Origin: Candidatus Saccharimonadota bacterium
Lineage (GTDB): Bacteria; Patescibacteriota; Saccharimonadia; Saccharimonadales; Saccharimonadaceae
Assembly: GCA_009777795.1 (NCBI GenBank)
Contig: WRLC01000003.1
Coordinates: 1 to 64,000 of the forward strand
Direction of reading: 5' to 3'
DNA length: 64,000 bases
Shown here: in pieces, positions 1 to 52,771 of the stretch
How positions within the stretch are numbered: position 1 is the stretch's first letter
Layout: each line of letters starts with the position of its first letter
The notes under the pieces: model-generated
What the model saw: the letters and a program-made list of their open reading frames with translations, nothing else
Database searches by the model: none
What the model was told of the DNA's origin: nothing
Program-made: the position numbers and the translations under genes

Positions 1-842
1 GTGGAGTTGTCTCTGGCGTCTACTACTCTAGTTCTTTCGGTTGGGCAGGAATAGTTGCCGGGTGTACCATTAAGAGTAATTCGTTGCATATCAGCACCGA
101 TAGGAGCTGGAGTAGGTAGGGGTGTGGGTGCAACATCAACTGTCGTAGCAAGATAGGTAATAAAGGCCCCATAGTCGCCAGCAGGTGTAGTGAGGCCGGC
201 TTGAGCACCAAAGGTGATAGTGGTGGACATGGTGTCTTCTGGATTGTTAGCAGCGGAGATGATGGTAGGTACTGTAGGAACGGAAGTGAACTCGGTACCA
301 TGGTCTAGGTTAAAGCCCCATGCTGCAGTGTCGGGTAGGGTATTATCTACGATACGGCTAGCAAAGGTAAGACCATCTAATTGGGCTAGGTTGTAGGTCA
401 GGTTAGAGTCTGCTTGGCTAGTAATACTGCCACCTATAGGAGCAAAGCCTCCTGTAGAGTCGCCGGTGCCGTCGTAGAGGCCGGGTGTGTCGGCTCTTAG
501 GAGGTTAGCTTGGTCTGCTTGGATACTTAACGTATAGCCGTAGATGGAGTTAGTGGAGACTTGGACTGTATGGGTGCCTGTACTATAGCCACCTGTAGAT
601 ATATCAGTGCCAGTGAGGGTTAAGTCGATGGCTTGGTTATTGATGGCGGTGATAGTGATACTTTCGGAGACTGTGGCGTGGATGTTGGCTGAGGCTGTGT
701 CGGTATCGATTGAGTAGGTGGTGAGGGGGGATAGAGCGAAAACAAGGATAGCGACAAGAACAAGGGAGATTAGAAATTTAGGAAGATAGCGAAGCCGAGC
801 CTGAGAAAAGACCCCCCCCCCCGGCTTTAGATTGTGCGACAT
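1..842 (-). CDS. Secreted Fib_succ_major-type surface protein, 3' end beyond window (partial)
   Basis: Read by hand: MSHNLKPGGGVFSQARLRYLPKFLISLVLVAILVFALSPLTTYSIDTDTASANIHATVSES...GADMQRITLNGTPGNYSCPTERTRVVDARDN; the end matches the 51263-52771 protein (GADMQRITLNGTFGDYFCPTSRTRVVDARDN). Not in the supplied ORF track. Confidence 0.8.
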   Translation of the reverse strand, partial: MSHNLKPGGGVFSQARLRYLPKFLISLVLVAILVFALSPLTTYSIDTDTASANIHATVSESITITAINNQAIDLTLTGTDISTGGYSTGTHTVQVSTNSIYGYTLSIQADQANLLRADTPGLYDGTGDSTGGFAPIGGSITSQADSNLTYNLAQLDGLTFASRIVDNTLPDTAAWGFNLDHGTEFTSVPTVPTIISAANNPEDTMSTTITFGAQAGLTTPAGDYGAFITYLATTVDVAPTPLPTPAPIGADMQRITLNGTPGNYSCPTERTRVVDARDNS

Positions 843-844
843 TG
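807..844 (-). repeat. Poly-G element copy 1 (CAATGTCGCACAATctAAAGcCG11TCTTT)
   Basis: 35/38 identical by eye to plus-strand copy at 51039-51076; contains the putative ATG of the downstream surface protein. Confidence 0.85.
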
Positions 845-895
845 TTAGCTATATCGCGAAGCGCCCCTATCATGTTTGAGATACGTTGCATGCTT

Positions 896-1321
896 TTATT
901 TTAGCATAAGTGGGTTGGTGGTGCAAGAGGAATCGTAGTTTTGGATGGCGGAGGCGAGGGCTTCGGAGCCGAGGACGGAGCAATGGAACTTGCGGGGGGG
1001 GAGGCCGCCGAGGTAGTCGGCGATTTCTTCGGGGGTGATGGCGAGGGCGGCGGCGAGAGTGCGGCCTTTGACGAGCTCGGAGAGGGCGGAGGTGCTGGCG
1101 ATGGCGCTGGCGCAGCCGTAAGTTTTCCAGCGGATGTCTTGGATTTTGTTGTCTTTGATTTGGAGATAGACTATCATTTCGTCGCCGCAGATTTTGTTGC
1201 CGACGGTGCCTTTGACGTTGAAATCGAACTGGCTTTCGTCGCCCATGAGGAAGTTGCGGGGTTCGAGGAAGTGGTCTTTGACCGCGTCGCTGTAGGCCCA
1301 AGGGGTAGGAGGGGTGCTCAT
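896..1321 (-). CDS. nifU: NifU/IscU-like Fe-S cluster scaffold
   Basis: YSDAVKDHFLEPRNFL...CGDEM...YGCASAIASTSALSELVKGR; conserved Cys pattern of IscU/NifU N-domain. Confidence 0.88.
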   Translation of the reverse strand: MSTPPTPWAYSDAVKDHFLEPRNFLMGDESQFDFNVKGTVGNKICGDEMIVYLQIKDNKIQDIRWKTYGCASAIASTSALSELVKGRTLAAALAITPEEIADYLGGLPPRKFHCSVLGSEALASAIQNYDSSCTTNPLMLK

Positions 1322-5293: not shown

Positions 5294-6202
5294 TTAGGAG
5301 CTCTCATCGCTATGGAAACGCTCGTGGACTTCCTTGAGGTGGGGATCGGTGAGGTGGGTGTAGACTTGGGTGGTGGCGATGTTGGAGTGGCCGAGCAAGC
5401 CTTGGACAGAGCGGATATCGGCGCCATTCATGAGGAGGTCGGTGGCGAAGCTATGGCGTAGGGAGTGAGGGGTGATTTTTTTGGTGAGGCCGGCGAGCTT
5501 GGCATATTTTTCAATCAGGCGCTGGACGGAGCGAGAGGTGAGACGCTGATCGTCGCTATCGCCTTTGTTGGAGCTGAGATTGACAAAGAGGGCGGGAGAG
5601 TCGTCAGTGCGCGAGGCGAGGTAGAGGGAGAGGGCTTCGGCGGCGACGTTGGAGATAAAAACGGGGCGGTCTTTCTGGCCCTTGCCGCGAACGATAAACT
5701 CGCGTTTGTCGAGGTTGATTTGATCGCGATTGAGGCTGGTTAGCTCGGAAACGCGAAGCCCGGCGGAAAAGAGCAGGGCGATAAGGGCGGTGTCGCGCTC
5801 GGCAGTTTTGCTAGCGGGAGGGACGGCGGCGAGGAGCTGCTCGATTTCGTCGACGTGGAGGAAAGAGACTTGGGGTCTGGCGACTTTGGGCAGGTCAATG
5901 TGGGCTGAGTCGAGGCTTTTGATTTCGCGGCGGGCGAGGTACTTGAGGAAAACGCGCAGGGCTATGAGATGATAGCTTTGGGTGCGAGGGGAGAGGGTGC
6001 GCCTTTGTTCGTCGCGGTAGCGGTTGAGCCAGAGGCGGTATTTGCGGGCGGTTTCGAGCGTGATGTCGCCGACTCGCATGTTATCAGAGAACTCGATGAA
6101 GCGGGCGAGGTAGAGGCGGTAGTTCTCGGCAGTTTTAACGCTGCGGCCGCGTTCGATTTCTAAGAACTCGACGAAATCGTTGGTTAGGTCGCTTAGATAC
6201 AT
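5294..6202 (-). CDS. xerC: Tyrosine recombinase XerC/XerD family
   Basis: Core-binding N-domain plus HSLRHSFATDLLMNGADIRSVQGLLGHSNIATTQVYTH (R-H-R-H-Y); start taken at MYLSDLTNDF. Confidence 0.92.
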   Translation of the reverse strand: MYLSDLTNDFVEFLEIERGRSVKTAENYRLYLARFIEFSDNMRVGDITLETARKYRLWLNRYRDEQRRTLSPRTQSYHLIALRVFLKYLARREIKSLDSAHIDLPKVARPQVSFLHVDEIEQLLAAVPPASKTAERDTALIALLFSAGLRVSELTSLNRDQINLDKREFIVRGKGQKDRPVFISNVAAEALSLYLASRTDDSPALFVNLSSNKGDSDDQRLTSRSVQRLIEKYAKLAGLTKKITPHSLRHSFATDLLMNGADIRSVQGLLGHSNIATTQVYTHLTDPHLKEVHERFHSDESS

Positions 6203-6257
6203 GTGTATATTATAGCAGAGGGTTGACTTAAGTGCGAAATTGTACTTCAATTATATT

Positions 6258-8018: not shown

Positions 8019-11000
8019 TTAGGAGCGGTGGCGACGGATGAGACGGTGAAGGCGTTTGCGATTGTAAATTAGGACGGCAAGGATAGCGGCAGAGCCGGCG
8101 CCGATGCCGATGGCGCGGGCGAAGTCGCTCGACCAGAAGATGGCGCTGGTGTCTGGGGCGTCGGGTAGGGTTGGCTCGTCGCGAGGGTCGACAGGGCGGG
8201 CGGCGATGGTGAGGATGAGGTCATGATCGGGTAGATGGGTGGTGCCGGTGTCGATGTCGTGGGCGGTGATGGTGATGCTGCCAGCGCGGGTTGGGGTGTA
8301 GGTGAAAGTGAGGCCGGCAGGTAGCGCGTGGTCGGTGACGACCGGCCAGTCGGCAGGGTCGAAAACGACTTGGGTTGGGCTAAAGATGCCGCCCATGCCA
8401 CCATCGGAGAGGTTAAAGGTGCCGTCGAAGAGGCCGTTTGGCGTGATGGTGAAGGTAATCGGCGTACCTACGACACCTTCGGTAGTGTCGGCGGTAAAGG
8501 TGAAGTCGGTGGCCGTGATGGCGACGTGAGGGTCGCCGGAAAGTCCGGGCGCTGCGGCCGAGATACCGATGTGGTTAGCCTCGATGTCGTGGGGGACGGA
8601 GACGGTGAAAGTGCAGGTGGTGGTGTTGGTCGTTATATCATAATCGTCGATGGTGAAAGTGCAGGTGGTGCGGCTCAATGCAACATCGGCAGCAGGGCCG
8701 GAAGTGCCATCGCCGGTCGGTAGGTAAGCGAGAATGGTGGCAGTGCCGTCATAAGGGCCGTTGATGGAGAGGGTATAGAGTTCACTTGTAGCACCACGCT
8801 GAATGCGGGAGGGCCCCGAGACATCTAACGTGGTGGCAAAGGTGATGATGTCGACAAGGCGTGGCGTGGCGGTGAAGGGGTCGCTGACGGAAATTGTGCG
8901 AATGCCCGGCGTGGTTGGGGTAAAGGTGAAGGTCTTGCCAACTGGATCTTTGCTGGTGGTTGGGTAATCAGAGAGGCCGAAGCTGACAGTAGGCACACTG
9001 ACGGTGGCACCGCCAATACCGGTGGAACCGATATTAAAGGCACCGTTGTAGACCGAGTTTGGCGTGATGGTGAAGGTGATTGGCGTGCCGATGGTGCCGG
9101 TCTGGGTGGTGTCGGGCGAGAGCGAGAAGTTGTTAGCGGTGATAGCAGTAAGGGCAGGGGCGGCGAGAGTCAGTGGTGGATCGCCGCTAGCAACGGCAGC
9201 GGTGATGCGCAGGTAGTGCGAGCCGGAATAATTGGCGGGCAGGCCGACGGTGAAATCGCAGATGGTGGCGCCGCTAAGGGTGGTGCCGAGGTCGGTTTCG
9301 GAAACAGTGCAGGAGCCGGAATTAGAAAATGTGGCGCCAGTAATTACACTGCCAGTAGCCGGGTCGGTGGCGGTAAAGTTGATGGTGCCAACGTAAGGCC
9401 CCGGGATGATGAGCCGATAGGTGCCACTCATGGTAGGGCTGATTTGGATGGCGGCGGTGCCGGTGAGGCTCATGCCGTCGGCCATGGTTTCGACGATGAC
9501 AGTTTTAGTGCCGAGCGAGCTAGAAACGGTGATGGTTTCAACGCCGGGCGCGGTGGTAGTGATGGTGAAAGTCCGGTTAATATCGTCGGCGGTGAAGGCT
9601 AGGGTGCTGGCGCTAAGAGTGCCGGGGCCGTCGGTGCTGATGCTGAAATTGCCGTTGAAAATAGAGTTTGGCGTGATAGTGAAGGTGAGGGTAGTGCCAG
9701 CAACGGCAATTTGAGTGGTGCTAGGTGAAAGAATGAAGTCGTTAGCGAGGATGTTGGTGGTGGCCGAAGCATCGGGCAAGGAGCGGCTACCAGTGTCGGT
9801 GGTGGCGACAACCTTGATTTGGCGAGAGCTGGAATAGTTGGCAGGTAGGGTAATGCTAAACTCGCAAGGGGTGCGGTTGGTGATGGTATTGTAGTCGGCT
9901 GCGCTGGTCTCACAGTAAGCGCCGCCAGTGCCGGTGTCGTTGACAGTGGCGCCAGCGATAGGCAGATTAGTTGTGGCATCGAGGATAGCAAGGTTAACGC
10001 GGCCAATGTAAGGGCCGTGGATATTAAGCAGGTAATAGCCAATCATTTCGCTGTCAATCTGGATGCTGCTGGTGCCAGTGAGCGACATGGTGTCGGCGAG
10101 GACGAGGATATCAACTGTTTCGGTGCCGAGGTCGCTAGTGACGGTGATGGTTTGCCAGCCATAACGCTCGGGTGAATAGTAGAAGGTTTGTCCGGGCATT
10201 GGGGTGTTGCCAGATGGCCACTCGGAGGTAGAGAAGGCGACGGTTGAGGTATCGAAAATTCCGGAGCCGCTATCATCGCTAAGAGAGAAAGTGCCGGCGT
10301 AGAGCGAGTCAGGAGTGATAGTGAACTCAATCGGTGTGTCGAGGTCGGCATCGTAGACGATGGATGGCGAGACCGAGAAGCTGAAAGCAACAACGGCGAC
10401 ATTGTGGGTGTCGGGGTCGAGGAGGCTGGTAGAGTCGGCGTCGACGGCGCGGATTTGGATTCGGTTGCCGGTGTAGGAGCTAGGCAGTGTGAAGTTAAAT
10501 GTACAGGTGCTGATTTCGGTGTCGGGGATGGCGTCGTCGGAGGTAAACGTACAGGTGGCGTCGCCATCGCTACTGATAATCTCGGCGCCAGTGATTTCGG
10601 TGTTGGTGGCTAAGTCCCAAATCGAAAGATTAATTGTGCCCTCAAGCTCGCCGCGAAGAGATAGGGTGTAGGTGCCGCTGGTTTGGCCTTTTTTGATGGT
10701 GTCGGGACCGCCGATGGCCATGGTGTCGAAGACGTGGACTTCAATCATTTGGGGGGCGATGGTGCGGCCGTCGGACGAGTCGGGAGTGATGAGGAAGCAA
10801 GCGCGGCCGAAGCTTGTCGGAGTAAAGGTGAAGGTTTTGCTAACAGGATTCTGCCCGACGGTTAGATAATCGTCATATGAATAGCTAATTTGGTCAGAAC
10901 TGAAGGTGCCGGTAAAACCGGATGGGTCGGGGCAGGTGTGGACGCCGTCGGCAATAGGTGGCGAGACCATAGCGACGTTAAAATCACCATCGAATTGGGC

Positions 11001-14000
11001 GTTTGGGGTGATGGTGAAGGTAATAGGGTTATTCATCTTTTGGTCGATTAGTTCGGGGCCGGGCTCGACGGTAAAGTCGGTCGCAAGGATGTTTATGTCT
11101 TTAGTGGCGTCAAACGGTGAAGAGAAGAGGGTAATGACGTTGCCATATTGGGCGAATTCGGAAGTAAAAGTGAATTCGCAGGATGTAGTATTGGTGATGG
11201 GGTCATAATCGTCAAGGGTAAGAACGCAACTGTTAGGCGCGAGCTTGGACGAGTCGTAGAACTCATCAGTGGAAGATTCGCCAAGCAGGATAGTACCTTC
11301 GTAAGGTCCGTTGAGGACGAGGGTGAAGGTTTCAGTGGAGCCTTTGACGAGCGTGTCGGGCCCGAGAATCTGGGCGGAGTTGGCGAGGACGAGTAGCTCG
11401 ATGGTTTGGATGCCCATGCTGGCTTGACCGGCTGGGGCGAGGGCGGTTTCGCGGATGGCGTCGACGGTGATGTCGATATAACCGGTCTGTTGAGGAACGT
11501 AGGTGAAAGTTTGAGCTTGCATGGTTTGGTCGTTAGTGGCTGGCCATTGGCTCTGGGTGCGGACAATACTGCCGGGCGGAGTGAAGTAGCCGAGAGCGCC
11601 ATTATCATCGAAGCTGTAAGTGCCGGCAAAGAGAGCGTTAGGCGTGAGGGTGAAGGTGAGAGGGGCGCCAAAGGCAACTGAAGCGCGGCTAGTAGTGGCA
11701 GATAGGCCGTCGCGAGTTATGGAGTAGCGGTTGGCGACGAGGCCAACGGTTTTGGAGGCGGGCAAGATGGTGGCATCGTCAGCGCTGATGTGAATCTCAA
11801 ACCAGTTGTAGTCAAAAATGAAGCCCTCGGCTTGAGCGCTATCAGCCATGCAGGCGGTGGTGGTGTTGGTGATGGGGTCGTAATTGTCGAGTGAGACTTC
11901 GCAAGTAAACGTGCCGTTGCCGTTGTCGGTGAAGTTGCTGGTGCCGGTAAGAACGGAATTATCAAACTGAATCTCGGAAGAGCCCTCGTGGCGGACGATA
12001 CGGCCATAGAGAGTGCCGATGAACGGGCCATTGATAGAGGTTATAAAGCGAGGCATGAGCGGCACTTCGTCGCGGGCGAGAGTGTCAGGGCCGGTGATAG
12101 TAATAGTGTCGCCCATGACATAGACGGTCAAGGTGTAAGTGTCGCCAACCTTGATGCCGCTATTTGGGTCGTCAACGCGAATAACCTCGGCGATGAGAGT
12201 CTTGACACCAGTGGAGCCGGGCGTATAGGTAAAGTCGAAATCGTCGCCACTGAAGTTCCAAGTGGCAAGGCCATCATCAGAGAACTCGGCAGTAGGGTCA
12301 TCTGGTGCGGAGATCTGGACTTGGCCGGCAAAGAGGCCATTAGGACGCAAGATGTAGTCTTGGGTGAGGCCGACGCGACTGGTTTCACAGTCAGGAGAGA
12401 TGTCGGAACAGAAAAAGAGTATGTCGTCGGGGATGATGTTGATAAGCGCCCAGTTGGCGTCGATGGTTGGTGAGGTGATATTGGCGCCGTCGGCTTGGAT
12501 GCGGACGATGGAATAGCTCGGGTCAGTGCCAGATGGGAGGGTGTAGGTAAAGGTGCGGTCGTAGGCTTCGCCGGGCAGGCAGTCGAGAAGGGTACCGCCG
12601 ATACCGCCACAAAATTCGTAGGTGAGAGTGGAGGGGTTAAATGTGCCGGAGAGCGCTGAGGTATCGGTAAAGGTGCCGTCGCCTGCGGCTTCGGGGATAC
12701 TATAACTTAGGAAGATATCGGATAGAGAGACGACGCCGCCCGGGTCGAGGTCGGATGGGTTGATGGAGAGGGTACAGTCGCTACTTTGACCGCGGGAGAT
12801 GGCGGAAGGTACGCAAGTGAGGGCGATGTGAGAGTCGATGACGTCAAAAGTGATGTCGCTATCGTCGATAGCTGGGTCGTCGCTCTCGCCAGAGAGGGTA
12901 TGTTCGCCAGTCTCGGCTGGAATGTAGCGGAAGGTTTCGTCGATACCAGAGCCATTGAAGGTGAATTCGAGCGTAGGGGTGCTGCTACCAGAGCCGCGAT
13001 CAAAGTTGCCGTCGAGGTCGCTGGAAAGGGTGATAGAGCCGAAATATGGTGCGTTAAAAGTGGATAGACCAAAGCGGGCGCTACAGCCGACGCAGCCGTG
13101 ATTTTCGTCGATTGGCGGGTTGTCGAGAGAGTAGATCTCGTAGCTTTGAGCGAGGAGGCCGACGGAGACTGAGCGCTGGGCAGGAGCGAGTGAGCCGGAA
13201 GAGGTGCCAGTAATAATGGGCCAGAAGAGATAATAGCCGTTGGCTTCGGTGTCGTCGTAGAGGTTGTCAATAATATAATCCCAAGATGGTGAGGTATAGG
13301 TGAAGGCGAGGACTTGGCCGGTGAGGTCGGCAGTGTCGGAAAGAGTGGTGGTGAAGACGCCGCTAGAGGAAAGACGAGGGTCGGAGCTAGTGAAGGTGCC
13401 GCCGAGGACGCTGGTCTCGGTTTCGCCAGTGGTGTCGGCGAGGCTGATGGTGCCATTATAGGAGCCATTTAAGATAATCCGGCAATCAAGCGGTGTACCG
13501 GGGTCAAGAAAGGCATTAGCGGCCCAAGCGCCGGTGGTGCCCTCAGACATACATTGCATGGAGAAAGTGGTGGCAATGGTAGTGATGGTGATGTTAAGCG
13601 TGGCGTTATCAACATAGCTGTTGCCAGAGTCGACCAGTAGGGTGATGAGACCAGAATAGCCGGACGGTGGAGTGTAGGTGAAAGTGCGAGAGGTTTGGTC
13701 GGTGAAGACTAGCTGATTGCCACCCACGACGTTAGCGCCACTGAAAGTGCCGCCCATGCCGCCATCGGTGAGAGTGACGGTGCCAGTATAATTATAGTCG
13801 AGGGAAACCGTATAGTTGCCACCAGCGCCAGTGCCGGAAAGGGTAGTAGGGCCGGTGAGAACGAGGGCGTCGGTGTAGGTATAGCCGGCGCTAGCAATGT
13901 AGGTTGAGCTGCCAATGGTGACGGCGACATCGACCACACCAGCGCTATGGGCGGGGGTGAGGCAGCTGATTTGAGTGTCGCTAATGATGTTGACCTCTTT

Positions 14001-15047
14001 GCAAGGATTGCCGCCAACGGTGACGAGATAAGGCAACTGAGTGATGCGGGCGTAGCCGTTGCCGGATTGGCCGGCTTGGGTGCCGCCGTTTGGAGCCGGC
14101 ATGGTACCAGTGGTGCTACCGTCTAGTGTCGCAGCGTTAAAAGCTTGGTACTGGGAGCCGAGGAGGTAGGCGCCGCCGATAGCGGTATTGCTGGGTACGT
14201 TGGACGAGGTGAAGACGAAACCGGAGCCGCCAGCGCCGTTGAGACCGGAACCGCCGCCGAACCAACCGCCGCCGCCGCCGGAGACATTGATGGCAGTAGA
14301 GAAAGGACAGTTGACAGCTGCGCCGAAGGCACCTTGACCGGCGCAACCGAGGACGTTGTTGGCGCCGCCGGAGGTTTGGGTGGCGACACCACCGGCTTGG
14401 TCGCCGGAAGTGAAGCTGGTGAGACCGCCGCCTGCACCGCCGCTGGTGCTGTTCCATTGATTACCGCTGGCGCCACCGCCACCGCCTGCAACGATAGCAC
14501 GAGCGTAAAGTGAGTTGATGCCGATGCGGATATCGGTGCCGCCACCACCGGAAGCAGTTTCGTGGCCGGTGCCGTTGTCGGTGCGGTAAGCACCGCCGCC
14601 GCCGTTAGCGCCACCCGGGTAAGGGGCGCTAGAAGTACGGGAGGCTTGGGAGCCAGCGCCGCCGACGCAAGCCCAGATGTTGGTGCCGGAAGATAAGTAA
14701 ACGGTGCCGGTCGAGTAGCCGCCGCGACCACCGGCAAAGGCTCCGGCATTACCACCGGCAGCACCCCAAGTTTCGAGCTGATAGTAGCCATTGGCTGGTA
14801 TAGTGTAGGTGGAACAGCCGGTGCTAGTGAAGTTGGTGGGCGCGCCGACTGTGTAGTCGGTGAAGCCGCTGCCAGTAATGATAATGTTTTGGCCGCCACG
14901 GCTGGGACCACGATCAGGAGTGATGTCGGTGATGTTAGTGGAGGCTAAGATAAAACCAAGGACGCCGACGAAGACGGCGAAAGAAGCGACGAAAGCGACT
15001 TTATATCGATGCCGACGTAAGAAACTAGTTTTGTGAAACCTTATCAT
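8019..15047 (-). CDS. Giant (2342 aa) repetitive cell-surface protein: N-terminal anchor, split TIG/IPT + glycine-rich domain, ~17 Ig-like repeats, C-terminal TM + basic tail
   Basis: Repeated GPxTL...GPYxGT and TPITFTITPNSxFxGTF modules; C-term AIGIGAGSAAILAVLIYNRKRLHRLIRRHRS. Confidence 0.9.
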   Translation of the reverse strand: MIRFHKTSFLRRHRYKVAFVASFAVFVGVLGFILASTNITDITPDRGPSRGGQNIIITGSGFTDYTVGAPTNFTSTGCSTYTIPANGYYQLETWGAAGGNAGAFAGGRGGYSTGTVYLSSGTNIWACVGGAGSQASRTSSAPYPGGANGGGGAYRTDNGTGHETASGGGGTDIRIGINSLYARAIVAGGGGGASGNQWNSTSGGAGGGLTSFTSGDQAGGVATQTSGGANNVLGCAGQGAFGAAVNCPFSTAINVSGGGGGWFGGGSGLNGAGGSGFVFTSSNVPSNTAIGGAYLLGSQYQAFNAATLDGSTTGTMPAPNGGTQAGQSGNGYARITQLPYLVTVGGNPCKEVNIISDTQISCLTPAHSAGVVDVAVTIGSSTYIASAGYTYTDALVLTGPTTLSGTGAGGNYTVSLDYNYTGTVTLTDGGMGGTFSGANVVGGNQLVFTDQTSRTFTYTPPSGYSGLITLLVDSGNSYVDNATLNITITTIATTFSMQCMSEGTTGAWAANAFLDPGTPLDCRIILNGSYNGTISLADTTGETETSVLGGTFTSSDPRLSSSGVFTTTLSDTADLTGQVLAFTYTSPSWDYIIDNLYDDTEANGYYLFWPIITGTSSGSLAPAQRSVSVGLLAQSYEIYSLDNPPIDENHGCVGCSARFGLSTFNAPYFGSITLSSDLDGNFDRGSGSSTPTLEFTFNGSGIDETFRYIPAETGEHTLSGESDDPAIDDSDITFDVIDSHIALTCVPSAISRGQSSDCTLSINPSDLDPGGVVSLSDIFLSYSIPEAAGDGTFTDTSALSGTFNPSTLTYEFCGGIGGTLLDCLPGEAYDRTFTYTLPSGTDPSYSIVRIQADGANITSPTIDANWALINIIPDDILFFCSDISPDCETSRVGLTQDYILRPNGLFAGQVQISAPDDPTAEFSDDGLATWNFSGDDFDFTYTPGSTGVKTLIAEVIRVDDPNSGIKVGDTYTLTVYVMGDTITITGPDTLARDEVPLMPRFITSINGPFIGTLYGRIVRHEGSSEIQFDNSVLTGTSNFTDNGNGTFTCEVSLDNYDPITNTTTACMADSAQAEGFIFDYNWFEIHISADDATILPASKTVGLVANRYSITRDGLSATTSRASVAFGAPLTFTLTPNALFAGTYSFDDNGALGYFTPPGSIVRTQSQWPATNDQTMQAQTFTYVPQQTGYIDITVDAIRETALAPAGQASMGIQTIELLVLANSAQILGPDTLVKGSTETFTLVLNGPYEGTILLGESSTDEFYDSSKLAPNSCVLTLDDYDPITNTTSCEFTFTSEFAQYGNVITLFSSPFDATKDINILATDFTVEPGPELIDQKMNNPITFTITPNAQFDGDFNVAMVSPPIADGVHTCPDPSGFTGTFSSDQISYSYDDYLTVGQNPVSKTFTFTPTSFGRACFLITPDSSDGRTIAPQMIEVHVFDTMAIGGPDTIKKGQTSGTYTLSLRGELEGTINLSIWDLATNTEITGAEIISSDGDATCTFTSDDAIPDTEISTCTFNFTLPSSYTGNRIQIRAVDADSTSLLDPDTHNVAVVAFSFSVSPSIVYDADLDTPIEFTITPDSLYAGTFSLSDDSGSGIFDTSTVAFSTSEWPSGNTPMPGQTFYYSPERYGWQTITVTSDLGTETVDILVLADTMSLTGTSSIQIDSEMIGYYLLNIHGPYIGRVNLAILDATTNLPIAGATVNDTGTGGAYCETSAADYNTITNRTPCEFSITLPANYSSSRQIKVVATTDTGSRSLPDASATTNILANDFILSPSTTQIAVAGTTLTFTITPNSIFNGNFSISTDGPGTLSASTLAFTADDINRTFTITTTAPGVETITVSSSLGTKTVIVETMADGMSLTGTAAIQISPTMSGTYRLIIPGPYVGTINFTATDPATGSVITGATFSNSGSCTVSETDLGTTLSGATICDFTVGLPANYSGSHYLRITAAVASGDPPLTLAAPALTAITANNFSLSPDTTQTGTIGTPITFTITPNSVYNGAFNIGSTGIGGATVSVPTVSFGLSDYPTTSKDPVGKTFTFTPTTPGIRTISVSDPFTATPRLVDIITFATTLDVSGPSRIQRGATSELYTLSINGPYDGTATILAYLPTGDGTSGPAADVALSRTTCTFTIDDYDITTNTTTCTFTVSVPHDIEANHIGISAAAPGLSGDPHVAITATDFTFTADTTEGVVGTPITFTITPNGLFDGTFNLSDGGMGGIFSPTQVVFDPADWPVVTDHALPAGLTFTYTPTRAGSITITAHDIDTGTTHLPDHDLILTIAARPVDPRDEPTLPDAPDTSAIFWSSDFARAIGIGAGSAAILAVLIYNRKRLHRLIRRHRS

Positions 15048-19957: not shown

Positions 19958-20742
19958 TGAGTGCTGTGCGCAGCAAGCTTGCAAAGATGCTCTTGGTATT
20001 CATGTTGATAATGACTGGAGCGATAGCGACCAACCTTACGGTCGCTAGTCAACCTACCTATGCAGCTTGCCCGAACGGGAACTTCCTTAACTTCCGTCCG
20101 TGGTGGCACGGGTTGCGCAATAACACAACTTGCGAGCTGGTCACGCCGGTGACCCGAATTGATTCAGATGGGAACGTGTCGGTAGGAACTGGTGGCAGCG
20201 GCGGGTACACTATAACGACATTTGCTTGGAGGATTGTGTTTAACTCTATGGATATATTGTTTGGTATTGTAGCTTATGCAGCAGTGTTCTTTGTTGTCTT
20301 GGGAGGATTCAATGTGCTGTTTAGTGGTGGCGACCCGGGCAAAGTGAGCAAAGGTAAGATGACAATCATGAATGCCTTGTTGGGCGTAGCGGTTGCATTG
20401 CTAGCGAGTGGCTTAGTGCGTTTCGTAAACGACACTTTGATTGGTACCGGGAATCACAATCTACGGATAGAAAATTCAACTGGCACGTTTAGGGTAGTCG
20501 ACGGATACGACGTGAACACTGACGACGTTTGGCTGGGTGCTATGGGTGCGTTTCTAATGGTGGCTGGGATTGGTGCAGTGATGATGGTGGTTTGGGGTGG
20601 TGTGAAACTATCGATGGCGTCGGGCGACCCAGCGGCAACGGCGAAGGCGAAAAATACGATTCTTTTTGCACTAATTGGCGCGATTGTGATGCTGCTGGCT
20701 AGCTTTATTGTGGGCTTTGTAGCTGACTCGGTGGGAGGATAG
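19957..20742 (+). CDS. Membrane protein with two fused VirB2-like modules
   Basis: Two copies of GGDPGKVSKGKMTIMNALLGVAVALLASG / SGDPAATAKAKNTILFALIGAIVMLLAS; TGATG overlap with upstream gene. Confidence 0.7.
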   Translation: MSAVRSKLAKMLLVFMLIMTGAIATNLTVASQPTYAACPNGNFLNFRPWWHGLRNNTTCELVTPVTRIDSDGNVSVGTGGSGGYTITTFAWRIVFNSMDILFGIVAYAAVFFVVLGGFNVLFSGGDPGKVSKGKMTIMNALLGVAVALLASGLVRFVNDTLIGTGNHNLRIENSTGTFRVVDGYDVNTDDVWLGAMGAFLMVAGIGAVMMVVWGGVKLSMASGDPAATAKAKNTILFALIGAIVMLLASFIVGFVADSVGG

Positions 20743-50893: not shown

Positions 50894-50936
50894 AGGACTA
50901 TTGTAGCACATTAGGCGAAAGATAGCAAGATAGGGC

Positions 50937-50965
50937 TTGACTTAGCGTAAAAGATGAGCTAAAAT
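50937..50965 (+). promoter_or_regulatory. Promoter upstream of poly-G leader
   Basis: TTGACT-17-TAAAAT. Confidence 0.7.
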
Positions 50966-50998
50966 GATAATGTATAAATGTATCAAAAGAGGTAAGGA

Positions 50999-51082
50999 AT
51001 GAGTCAAGCTATTATAATACGTGCGACAATGCCAAAGGCAATGTCGCACAATAAAAAGTCGGGGGGGGGGGTCTTTAGATGA
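50999..51082 (+). CDS. Putative leader peptide containing poly-G tract: MSQAIIIRATMPKAMSHNKKSGGGVFR*
   Basis: SD AGAGGTAAGGA directly before ATG; in-frame TGA at 51080 with the 11-G tract as given. Confidence 0.5.
   Translation: MSQAIIIRATMPKAMSHNKKSGGGVFR
51039..51076 (+). repeat. Poly-G element copy 2 (CAATGTCGCACAATaaAAAGtCG11TCTTT)
   Basis: 35/38 identical by eye to minus-strand copy at 807-844. Confidence 0.85.
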
Positions 51083-51262
51083 TAGACTAGCTGACCCGCG
51101 TCTTTTTTATTTATTTTCGTGCCTTCAGATGACTCTTTCTGGAGGCAAATACATTCAAGCTAAGAATGCTCCGATGGCGTCCCTTTACTACGTTTGTCGG
51201 GGCATTTTTGGTGGCAAAGAGTTAGAGTCAAAGGTAAATAAATTAAGAGGTAAGGAGAAAAA

Positions 51263-52771
51263 ATGGTAAGGAAATATAAGGATATACAAGGTAAGTTAGG
51301 TTGGGTGAGGAGAGTGGCGGGAGCGGTGGGCGTTGCGGCGGCTTTCGGGGTATTGGTTGGGATGGTGTCGGATGGGATAAGGCGAGTCGAGGCGGAAGAA
51401 ATCCAGATTAATGCTACGCTAGGTATGGGTTCTCTTTCGATTACTGATGGTGCTTGTTCCTTTGCTAATGGCAGTCAAACGGATTATAACGCTGCCAGTA
51501 ATGTACTAGACATAAGCGTGCTGACCGACAGTATTGCTAGTAATTGCTTGGGTATTAGTGTGGTGTCTTTGAGCAATAATGGTTATACGCTAACCATTGA
51601 AGGCCCAAGCACAGGCAATTTGACTCTTGCTAACCATAACATCACTGGTGCTACTGGTAGTATTGCAGCTCCAGCTGTTTTTGACCATGATGTGGCGGAA
51701 AGTGCTTGGGGTTTTGCGATACCTAGCGGCCAAATAAGAGATGTGGCAAATGGTTTTGATGCGAGCTATAGCGTATTAGCGCCAAGCAATACAACCAATA
51801 CCGCTAAATACGCCGCTGTGCCGACGACAGCTACAGCAGTATCGGCGACGACAACAGCTAACCCGTCAGCTCATAAATACGATTTCTTTTTTGCGGTTTC
51901 GGCTGGGACATATGTGCCGACAGGTACATATCGAGGGGTGGTGACTATTACGGCGGCTGGGAATGCGGCGCCGATGCCGACTGAAGCGCCAGCCGGTGCG
52001 GATATGCAGCGGATTACTTTGAACGGTACGTTTGGGGATTACTTCTGCCCAACTTCTCGCACCAGAGTAGTTGACGCGCGCGACAACAACAGCTACTGGA
52101 TACGCAAAGTAGGCGACCTCTGCTGGATGGAGACCAACCTTGCCTACAAAGGCGGTGGTACCAACACTTACGGCGATACCATGACTATCACCGCAGGTAC
52201 AACTGGTCCTAATGCCCTAGTTGCAGGAGTGACCGGCTCATCTGGTGCCTGCTATGGCGACAACGCAACGATGAACACTAACGGCCAAGGCTGCTTCTGG
52301 GAGCCAACTGGTAGCAACATCACAACAGGCACAACTGACCCAAGTACTAGCACTACAGGCACAGGCCAATACGGTGTGTTATATAACTGGTGTGCAGCTA
52401 TGGGCGGCCAAGCTTCTGCTTGCCAGACCAGTACTGCCACCCAACCCGATACTACTATTAACGTATGCCCAAGCGGTTGGAGACTGCCGACAGGCAATAG
52501 TACAACTGGCGAATTCACATTACTAAATAACACCATCAACAGCGGAAGTACCAGCAGTCCGACAGGCCTATTAACCAATGGCCTTTATATGTACGCCGGC
52601 TTCTTCAACAGTGGCTCGTTCCTCACTCAGGGCTCAATCGGCTACTATTGGTCTTCTACTGTTGGTATCGCCTCCAATGCTCTCAGCCTGTACTACCTCA
52701 GCTCCAATGTCTATCCTGCGTACACGAGCAATAAGGGCCGCGGCTACTCTGTTCGTTGTGTCGCGCCTTGA
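51263..52771 (+). CDS. Secreted Fib_succ_major paralogous-domain surface protein
   Basis: N-terminal hydrophobic segment; WIRKVGDLCWMETNLAYKGGG...CPSGWRLPTG...YWSSTV...GYSVRCVAP. Confidence 0.88.
   Translation: MVRKYKDIQGKLGWVRRVAGAVGVAAAFGVLVGMVSDGIRRVEAEEIQINATLGMGSLSITDGACSFANGSQTDYNAASNVLDISVLTDSIASNCLGISVVSLSNNGYTLTIEGPSTGNLTLANHNITGATGSIAAPAVFDHDVAESAWGFAIPSGQIRDVANGFDASYSVLAPSNTTNTAKYAAVPTTATAVSATTTANPSAHKYDFFFAVSAGTYVPTGTYRGVVTITAAGNAAPMPTEAPAGADMQRITLNGTFGDYFCPTSRTRVVDARDNNSYWIRKVGDLCWMETNLAYKGGGTNTYGDTMTITAGTTGPNALVAGVTGSSGACYGDNATMNTNGQGCFWEPTGSNITTGTTDPSTSTTGTGQYGVLYNWCAAMGGQASACQTSTATQPDTTINVCPSGWRLPTGNSTTGEFTLLNNTINSGSTSSPTGLLTNGLYMYAGFFNSGSFLTQGSIGYYWSSTVGIASNALSLYYLSSNVYPAYTSNKGRGYSVRCVAP

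Follow-up and report, generated by a model that had tools for sequence, protein, structure and literature searches.

A candidate poly-G phase-variation element carrying one arm of the chromosomal dif site upstream of exported-protein genes in a Saccharibacteria genome

Copies of the element in the genome

A 38-bp element ending in a tract of 11 G residues and a short downstream flank was found repeatedly upstream of exported-protein genes in a 559-kb Saccharibacteria genome assembly (G000), and this surface-protein family is likely subject to poly-G phase variation. We consider it rather probable that the element serves as the switch within a 5' cassette belonging to this multigene family and works by a slipped-strand mechanism. 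The window, the whole stretch of DNA analysed (64,000 nucleotides), contains two copies, termed copy A (the locus at 51 kb, L002) and copy B (the start of the contig, L001); G001, G002 and G003 denote three sister genomes.

51039-51076, + strand: 38-bp element copy A, G11
844-807, - strand: 38-bp element copy B, G11

The sequence-only reading had described a duplicated element in opposite orientation with the same G length, and this was reproduced, since the copies are identical at 35 of 38 positions and both tracts are G11. When the genome was searched with the pattern CAATGTCGCACAATNNAAAGNCGGGGGGG, allowing up to 3 mismatches, 8 matches were obtained, and the reversed control gave 0. The eight copies are spread over five contigs, and the tract is exactly G11 in every one. 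Their consensus order is a -35/-10 promoter, a short leader, the core AATGTCGCACAAT, 8-9 variable bases and G11; a ribosome site is present in the leader of most copies, and a TTAGATG gate follows the tract in 7/8. Seven copies lie upstream of exported proteins and the remaining one, a solo module, upstream of ftsK. A motif scattered over the genome without association with surface genes was thus not borne out: the solo module is the sole G-tract copy away from a surface gene, and the one exact core that lacks a G tract belongs to the dif site described below. The promoter/leader context common to all eight copies, the position of seven before exported proteins and a 13-bp core that is identical in all eight, including where flanks or reading frame differ, largely uphold the part of the earlier reading that took the element as a functional, non-random 5' module. 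The identity of the core with a dif arm, the frame gate and the hairpins behind the tract had escaped that reading.

The element was rejected as a family-wide feature because, among ~300 genomes, it was found only in the source genome and one sister species; a match in a third genome (G278) lacked the G tract, and a GTDB scan returned the same one sister species only. A plasmid- or virus-borne element was also rejected, as there were no plasmid matches and no viral contigs with core and G tract.

The copy A locus and its reading frames

The features of the copy A locus are as follows.

50912..52771 (left edge approximate), + strand: inserted transcription unit (promoter, leader, hairpins and surface gene), missing at the collinear position in three sister genomes
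50937..50965, + strand: sigma-70-type leader promoter TTGACT-N17-TAAAAT, with homologous promoters in L003, L007 and L008
50999..51082, + strand: leader ORF as assembled (11 G), MSQAIIIRATMPKAMSHNKKSGGGVFR and a stop, with the ribosome site AGGTAAGGA immediately upstream
51021..51049, + strand: hairpin GTGCGACA..TGTCGCAC, pairing with the core, present in 5/8 copies
51040..51052, + strand: core AATGTCGCACAAT, an exact match to the left arm of chromosomal dif
51061..51071, + strand: G11 tract, putative slippage switch
51072..51082, + strand: frame gate TCTTTAGATGA, closed by TGA at 11 G and by TAG at 12 G, and open at 10 or 13 G
51083..51269, + strand: leader continuation in the 10/13-G frame, whose terminal TAA overlaps the surface-gene start (ATGGTAA)
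51120..51147, + strand: hairpin P1 of the conserved leader RNA
51159..51212, + strand: hairpin P2, terminator-like, with a conserved CTTTAC loop and a long stem whose 3' arm has a T5 run
51263..52771, + strand: exported surface protein of 502 aa with a C-terminal Fib_succ_major domain (E=7.6e-13)

In copy A, the tract lies outside the surface protein, in a separate leader ORF (MSQ...MSHNKKSGGGVFR) that stops soon after the tract with 11 G. An upstream ATG in frame with ATGTCGCACAAT (MSHN) is present in seven copies, and from the upstream ATG, 11 G gives an early stop (mostly TGA), 12 G mostly TAG, and 10 or 13 G an open frame. In L003 and L005, the open frame runs on through a signal peptide to encode an exported protein of ~500 aa. 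In the leader subtype, to which copy A, L004, L007, L008 and the solo module (L037) belong, a short leader ORF contains the tract and is followed by P1 and P2. Both closed frames end 1-6 codons from the tract in 5/5 leader copies, and the open frame passes P2 in four of the five, the exception being L004, where it stops before the hairpins. It ends 4-14 nt past P2 in L007, L008 and L037; in copy A, its end falls on the surface-gene start, ATGGTAA. A related locus in the sister species (G002) carries G9, which is in frame, and its frame is long and open. Two marks of a poly-G (SSR) phase-variable locus were accordingly found, namely a tract long enough (about 8 or more) near the 5' end or promoter and a frame that is open or closed depending on tract length.

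The mechanism proposed is as described below. The single assembly gives one length for each tract; replication slippage, presumed to take place in living cells, would change this length and hence the reading frame. Translation of an 11-G or 12-G template would stop within a few codons at the TGA or TAG that forms part of TTTAGATGA, and with 10 or 13 G it would continue. In L003, L005 and, from its upstream ATG, copy B, continuation would lead directly into the signal peptide; in the copy at 51039 and four more, it would lead through two conserved hairpins to or near the start of the next gene. There, translating ribosomes may block a hairpin-driven end of transcription and/or couple translation to the surface gene, an attenuator step that we infer from the layout of the leader.

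We also considered that errors of sequencing or assembly produced the tract lengths, in which case the frames would mean little. Long G-runs are prone to error, and the genome is a draft in which contigs terminate at repeated surface genes. Exact length, however, has no bearing on the tracts as such, on where they lie or on the stop gate, and on contig C6 two G10 tracts inside other genes are in frame; we regard an artefact as very unlikely.

Insertion history and the solo module

The locus at ~46-58 kb is collinear with the three sister genomes, all of which lack the 1.86-kb segment from ~50912 to 52771; between the genes flanking the insert site, G001, G002 and G003 carry 29-74 nt that remained unaligned. 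Insertion by a crossover at the dif arm was rejected because the arm lies ~130 bp inside the insert. The solo module (L037/L218; G000 C6 ~20000-20350) consists of a leader and both hairpins with no surface gene, lies between a helicase gene and ftsK, and is absent before ftsK in G003. Its neighbour ftsK is the partner of Xer at dif. Elsewhere in the window, an open reading frame of 2342 codons occupies 8019-15047 on the - strand.

The missing unit in three sisters and the missing solo module in G003 give partial support to the mobility named in the sequence-only reading, and speak for a small mobile or duplicating (MITE-like) element with promoter, leader and hairpins that lands before genes by chance. 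Terminal repeats and target duplications, however, were not recognised, seven of the eight copies adjoin surface genes, and 60 relatives gave no match to the hairpins. A chance-landing element of this kind is highly improbable in our estimation.

Conserved hairpins in the leader

A covariance model of P1/P2 had exactly five matches in the genome, 5/5 directly behind the element, and no match in 60 relatives. Nine base pairs were changed on both sides as compared to 3.5 in shuffles (0/500), in an alignment of few sequences whose signal came mostly from L037. A genome-wide P1-P2 repeat was rejected since there are only five copies, each behind the element. A known RNA family was also rejected; the single match (E 0.26) was to a human lncRNA far below its threshold and was taken as chance. 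The P1 loop (ACTCTTT) is, by eye, complementary to AAAGAGT past P2 in L002, L004, L007 and L008, a possible pseudoknot or alternative pairing.

Promoters scanned on the coding strand were found only upstream of the leader. A T run is present in the P2 of L002, L007 and L008 and absent from that of L037, and a terminator scan returned terminator-like hairpins just 5' of P1 in L004 and L008 and none in L002 or L007. Of the parts of an attenuator, in which a translated ORF with a ribosome site precedes a terminator hairpin, the ORF and covarying hairpins are present, and terminator-like sites occur in L004 and L008 only. The uneven T run, the few terminator sites and the L004 frame that stops short of its hairpins count against the proposed mechanism. 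The location of the tract in a leader ORF, together with an open frame that runs through the hairpins to the surface-gene start, suggests a frame-gated attenuator or translational coupling, which may operate at the 51-kb copy with a probability that we put slightly below even.

Copy B and the surface-gene family

898..926, - strand: copy B promoter TTGCAC-N17-TAAAAT, read by eye
831..843, - strand: copy B core AATGTCGCACAAT
812..822, - strand: copy B G11 tract
1..891, - strand: copy B surface-protein gene, ending at the contig edge, with the tract directly joined to the signal peptide

In copy B, an ATG at 891-889 (- strand) lies 6 nt past the promoter and is probably a leaderless start; the frame from it is open with 10 or 13 G. 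Within the core there is a further ATG that 11 G places in frame, but it lacks a ribosome site. The likely start of copy B thus probably reads the same DNA core in another frame, and since the core is conserved despite this, conservation at the DNA or RNA level is indicated rather than at that of the peptide.

Both copies had been said to precede Fib_succ_major-type proteins. This holds for copy A; the 270 aa available for copy B gave no Fib_succ_major or TIG match in Pfam and only a sub-threshold Cadherin-like match. Copy B was the exception among ten proteins tested, the other nine of which carry Fib_succ_major or TIG domains, some below the curated cut-off.

The copy B body is near-identical to those of L198 and L204, whose promoter, leader, tract and signal peptide differ, and the joint between body and 5' part lies ~100 nt beyond the core. 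A body common to genes with different 5' parts indicates that 5' modules and bodies are shuffled in evolution. Near-identical surface-protein genes (L198, L201, L204, L206 and window 1-844) stand at the ends of contigs C2, C3 (both ends), C4 and C5, which implies that the assembly breaks in this repeat family.

G tracts in the genome and its relatives

G-runs of at least 10 occur 21 times in the genome, against ~1.1 expected under a third-order Markov model of the window (~20-fold excess); a chance homopolymer was rejected by this expectation. Most of these runs stand at the start of exported proteins, and there are six further G9 tracts. Pattern searches, in a survey covering tracts of more than 8 G, showed that ~14 further surface genes begin with similar G9-G11 tracts, nearly all one base off frame. 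Altogether, the source genome has ~22 surface/leader tracts of G9-G11, with G always on the coding strand and mostly off by one; by our count, only one (L014, G11) is clearly in frame. If one third were expected in frame, the probability of at most 1/22 would be near 0.002, a bias toward off. On contig C6 (L147; C6:1-8000), two G10 tracts, both in frame, lie inside genes of what was assigned by eye as a glycosyltransferase-like surface polysaccharide cluster.

In relatives, some surface genes begin with G10-G17 tracts, which are in frame in some cases and off in others; such tracts also occupy promoter spacers behind TTGAC, and several of these loci are at contig ends. In G022, G012, G023 and G003 (L105, L106, L113, L115, L116, L118, L120 and L135), G10-G17 stands directly behind -35-like boxes, and a promoter-spacer type of phase variation is possible in related Saccharibacteria. 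Paralogous tracts in G006 range from G10 to G14, some in frame and some off. The length variation among paralogs and the tracts behind -35 boxes represent the classical layout of poly-G contingency loci. In G014 C38 (L104), G15 and G14 tracts stand on opposite strands ~250 bp apart.

Tract length thus varies among relatives and between classes, with G9 in the sister species, and is G11 in 8/8 dif-arm copies. Since free slippage would be expected to give more scatter and ~1/3 of tracts in frame, the uniform G11 and the ~1/22 in frame count against it. These facts, and the position of most other surface tracts one short of the open frame, would fit programmed slippage, in which DNA length is fixed and slippage by RNA polymerase or the ribosome places a constant minority of products in frame. 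This explanation is at odds with the in-frame G9 of the sister species, the two states of the G006 paralogs and the in-frame G11 of L014, and, being based on the product frame, is inapplicable to some relatives' tracts, those in promoter spacers; we judge it unlikely, and retain slippage of the DNA tract as the preferred reading.

The dif arm and Xer

A ninth exact core was found in an intergenic region (G000 C2:55979-56008; L145, L169) within AATGTCGCACAATGTACCTTTTGCGACATT. In length, palindrome and 6-bp centre, this sequence matches known dif sites, among them that of E. coli. Such properties of dif sites have been described (PMC3599477). Of the 61 genomes searched, 27 carried related sites, a single one in nearly every case, with the consensus TGTCGCACAA-TRTAYM-TTTTRCGACA. 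From this footprint and the three properties, we conclude that the C2 site is likely the chromosomal dif of this Saccharibacteria lineage, occurring about once per genome across the order. In a dif site, a 6-bp centre separates two 11-bp arms in inverted orientation; the element has the lineage's arm sequence on the left only, sharing the left arm and the first centre base (exact 13 bp) and differing in the rest of the centre and the right arm. Chance identity of the 13-bp core with the dif arm is very unlikely, and the core is taken as a putative Xer-binding or past recombination site. The following gene presumably encodes the enzyme acting at dif.

5294..6250, - strand: Xer-type tyrosine recombinase, the only PF00589 match in the genome assembly

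The exact arm, the invariance of the core although flanks and frame differ, the copy B body shared by genes with another 5' module and the Xer gene in the window would all be expected if the core were a half-site at which Xer exchanges 5' cassettes between surface genes, in the manner of mycoplasma Vpma/Vsa switching, with the G tract secondary. Against this, there is only a single arm, the centre and right arm mismatch dif, the collinearity of the 51-kb locus with the sisters indicates no inversion there, and the copy B joint is not at the core. We therefore regard Xer recombination as quite improbable as the main explanation, and hold to the G-tract switch. A present role of the dif arm in the cassette is doubtful. 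It is likewise improbable, though conceivable, that the single Xer is coupled to surface variation, with the dif half-site serving Xer binding or 5' module exchange and the G tract with the frame-gated attenuator serving as on/off control; if true, the half-site and the frame gate would be two stacked variation systems in a reduced genome.

Comparison with known systems

For Saccharibacteria, life attached to other bacteria and a dependence on surface contact are assumed. A set of surface genes that can be switched would supply variation within the population as a means against host resistance or phages, and a dif arm before surface genes offers a testable link between chromosome resolution and surface variation. 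In the literature searched, we found no link between Saccharibacteria or the candidate phyla radiation and homopolymer phase variation, which is no proof of novelty, and no description of phase variation via a leader ORF in which a G tract determines the frame. In trp-type translation-controlled attenuators, a leader ORF overlaps RNA hairpins upstream of the structural gene. This overlap is shared by the leader copies described here, but DNA tract length, in place of a metabolite or charged tRNA, would exert the control.

From a Gracilibacterium, a hypervariable repeat protein has been described (PMC6851277). Xer-family targets at the 5' end of surface families occur in Mycoplasma agalactiae Vpma (PMC2268961) and Ureaplasma parvum mba (PMC3599477); those systems have their own sites, whereas here one arm of dif itself is present and no rearrangement was seen. 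The poly-G/SSR contingency loci of Campylobacter, Neisseria and Helicobacter (for example PMC6321876, PMC3639595 and PMC2823697) are alike in having long G tracts near surface-gene 5' ends or in promoter spacers, with tract length setting frame or spacing; the present element differs from them in the fixed dif-arm core before the tract and in the five copies that gate a separate leader ORF. Clostridioides difficile cwpV (PMC2784873) also has an upstream promoter and a leader before a surface-protein gene, with phase variation proposed to act via an intrinsic terminator; there, the switch is DNA inversion by RecV, while here it would be a homopolymer frame gate with a leader ORF.
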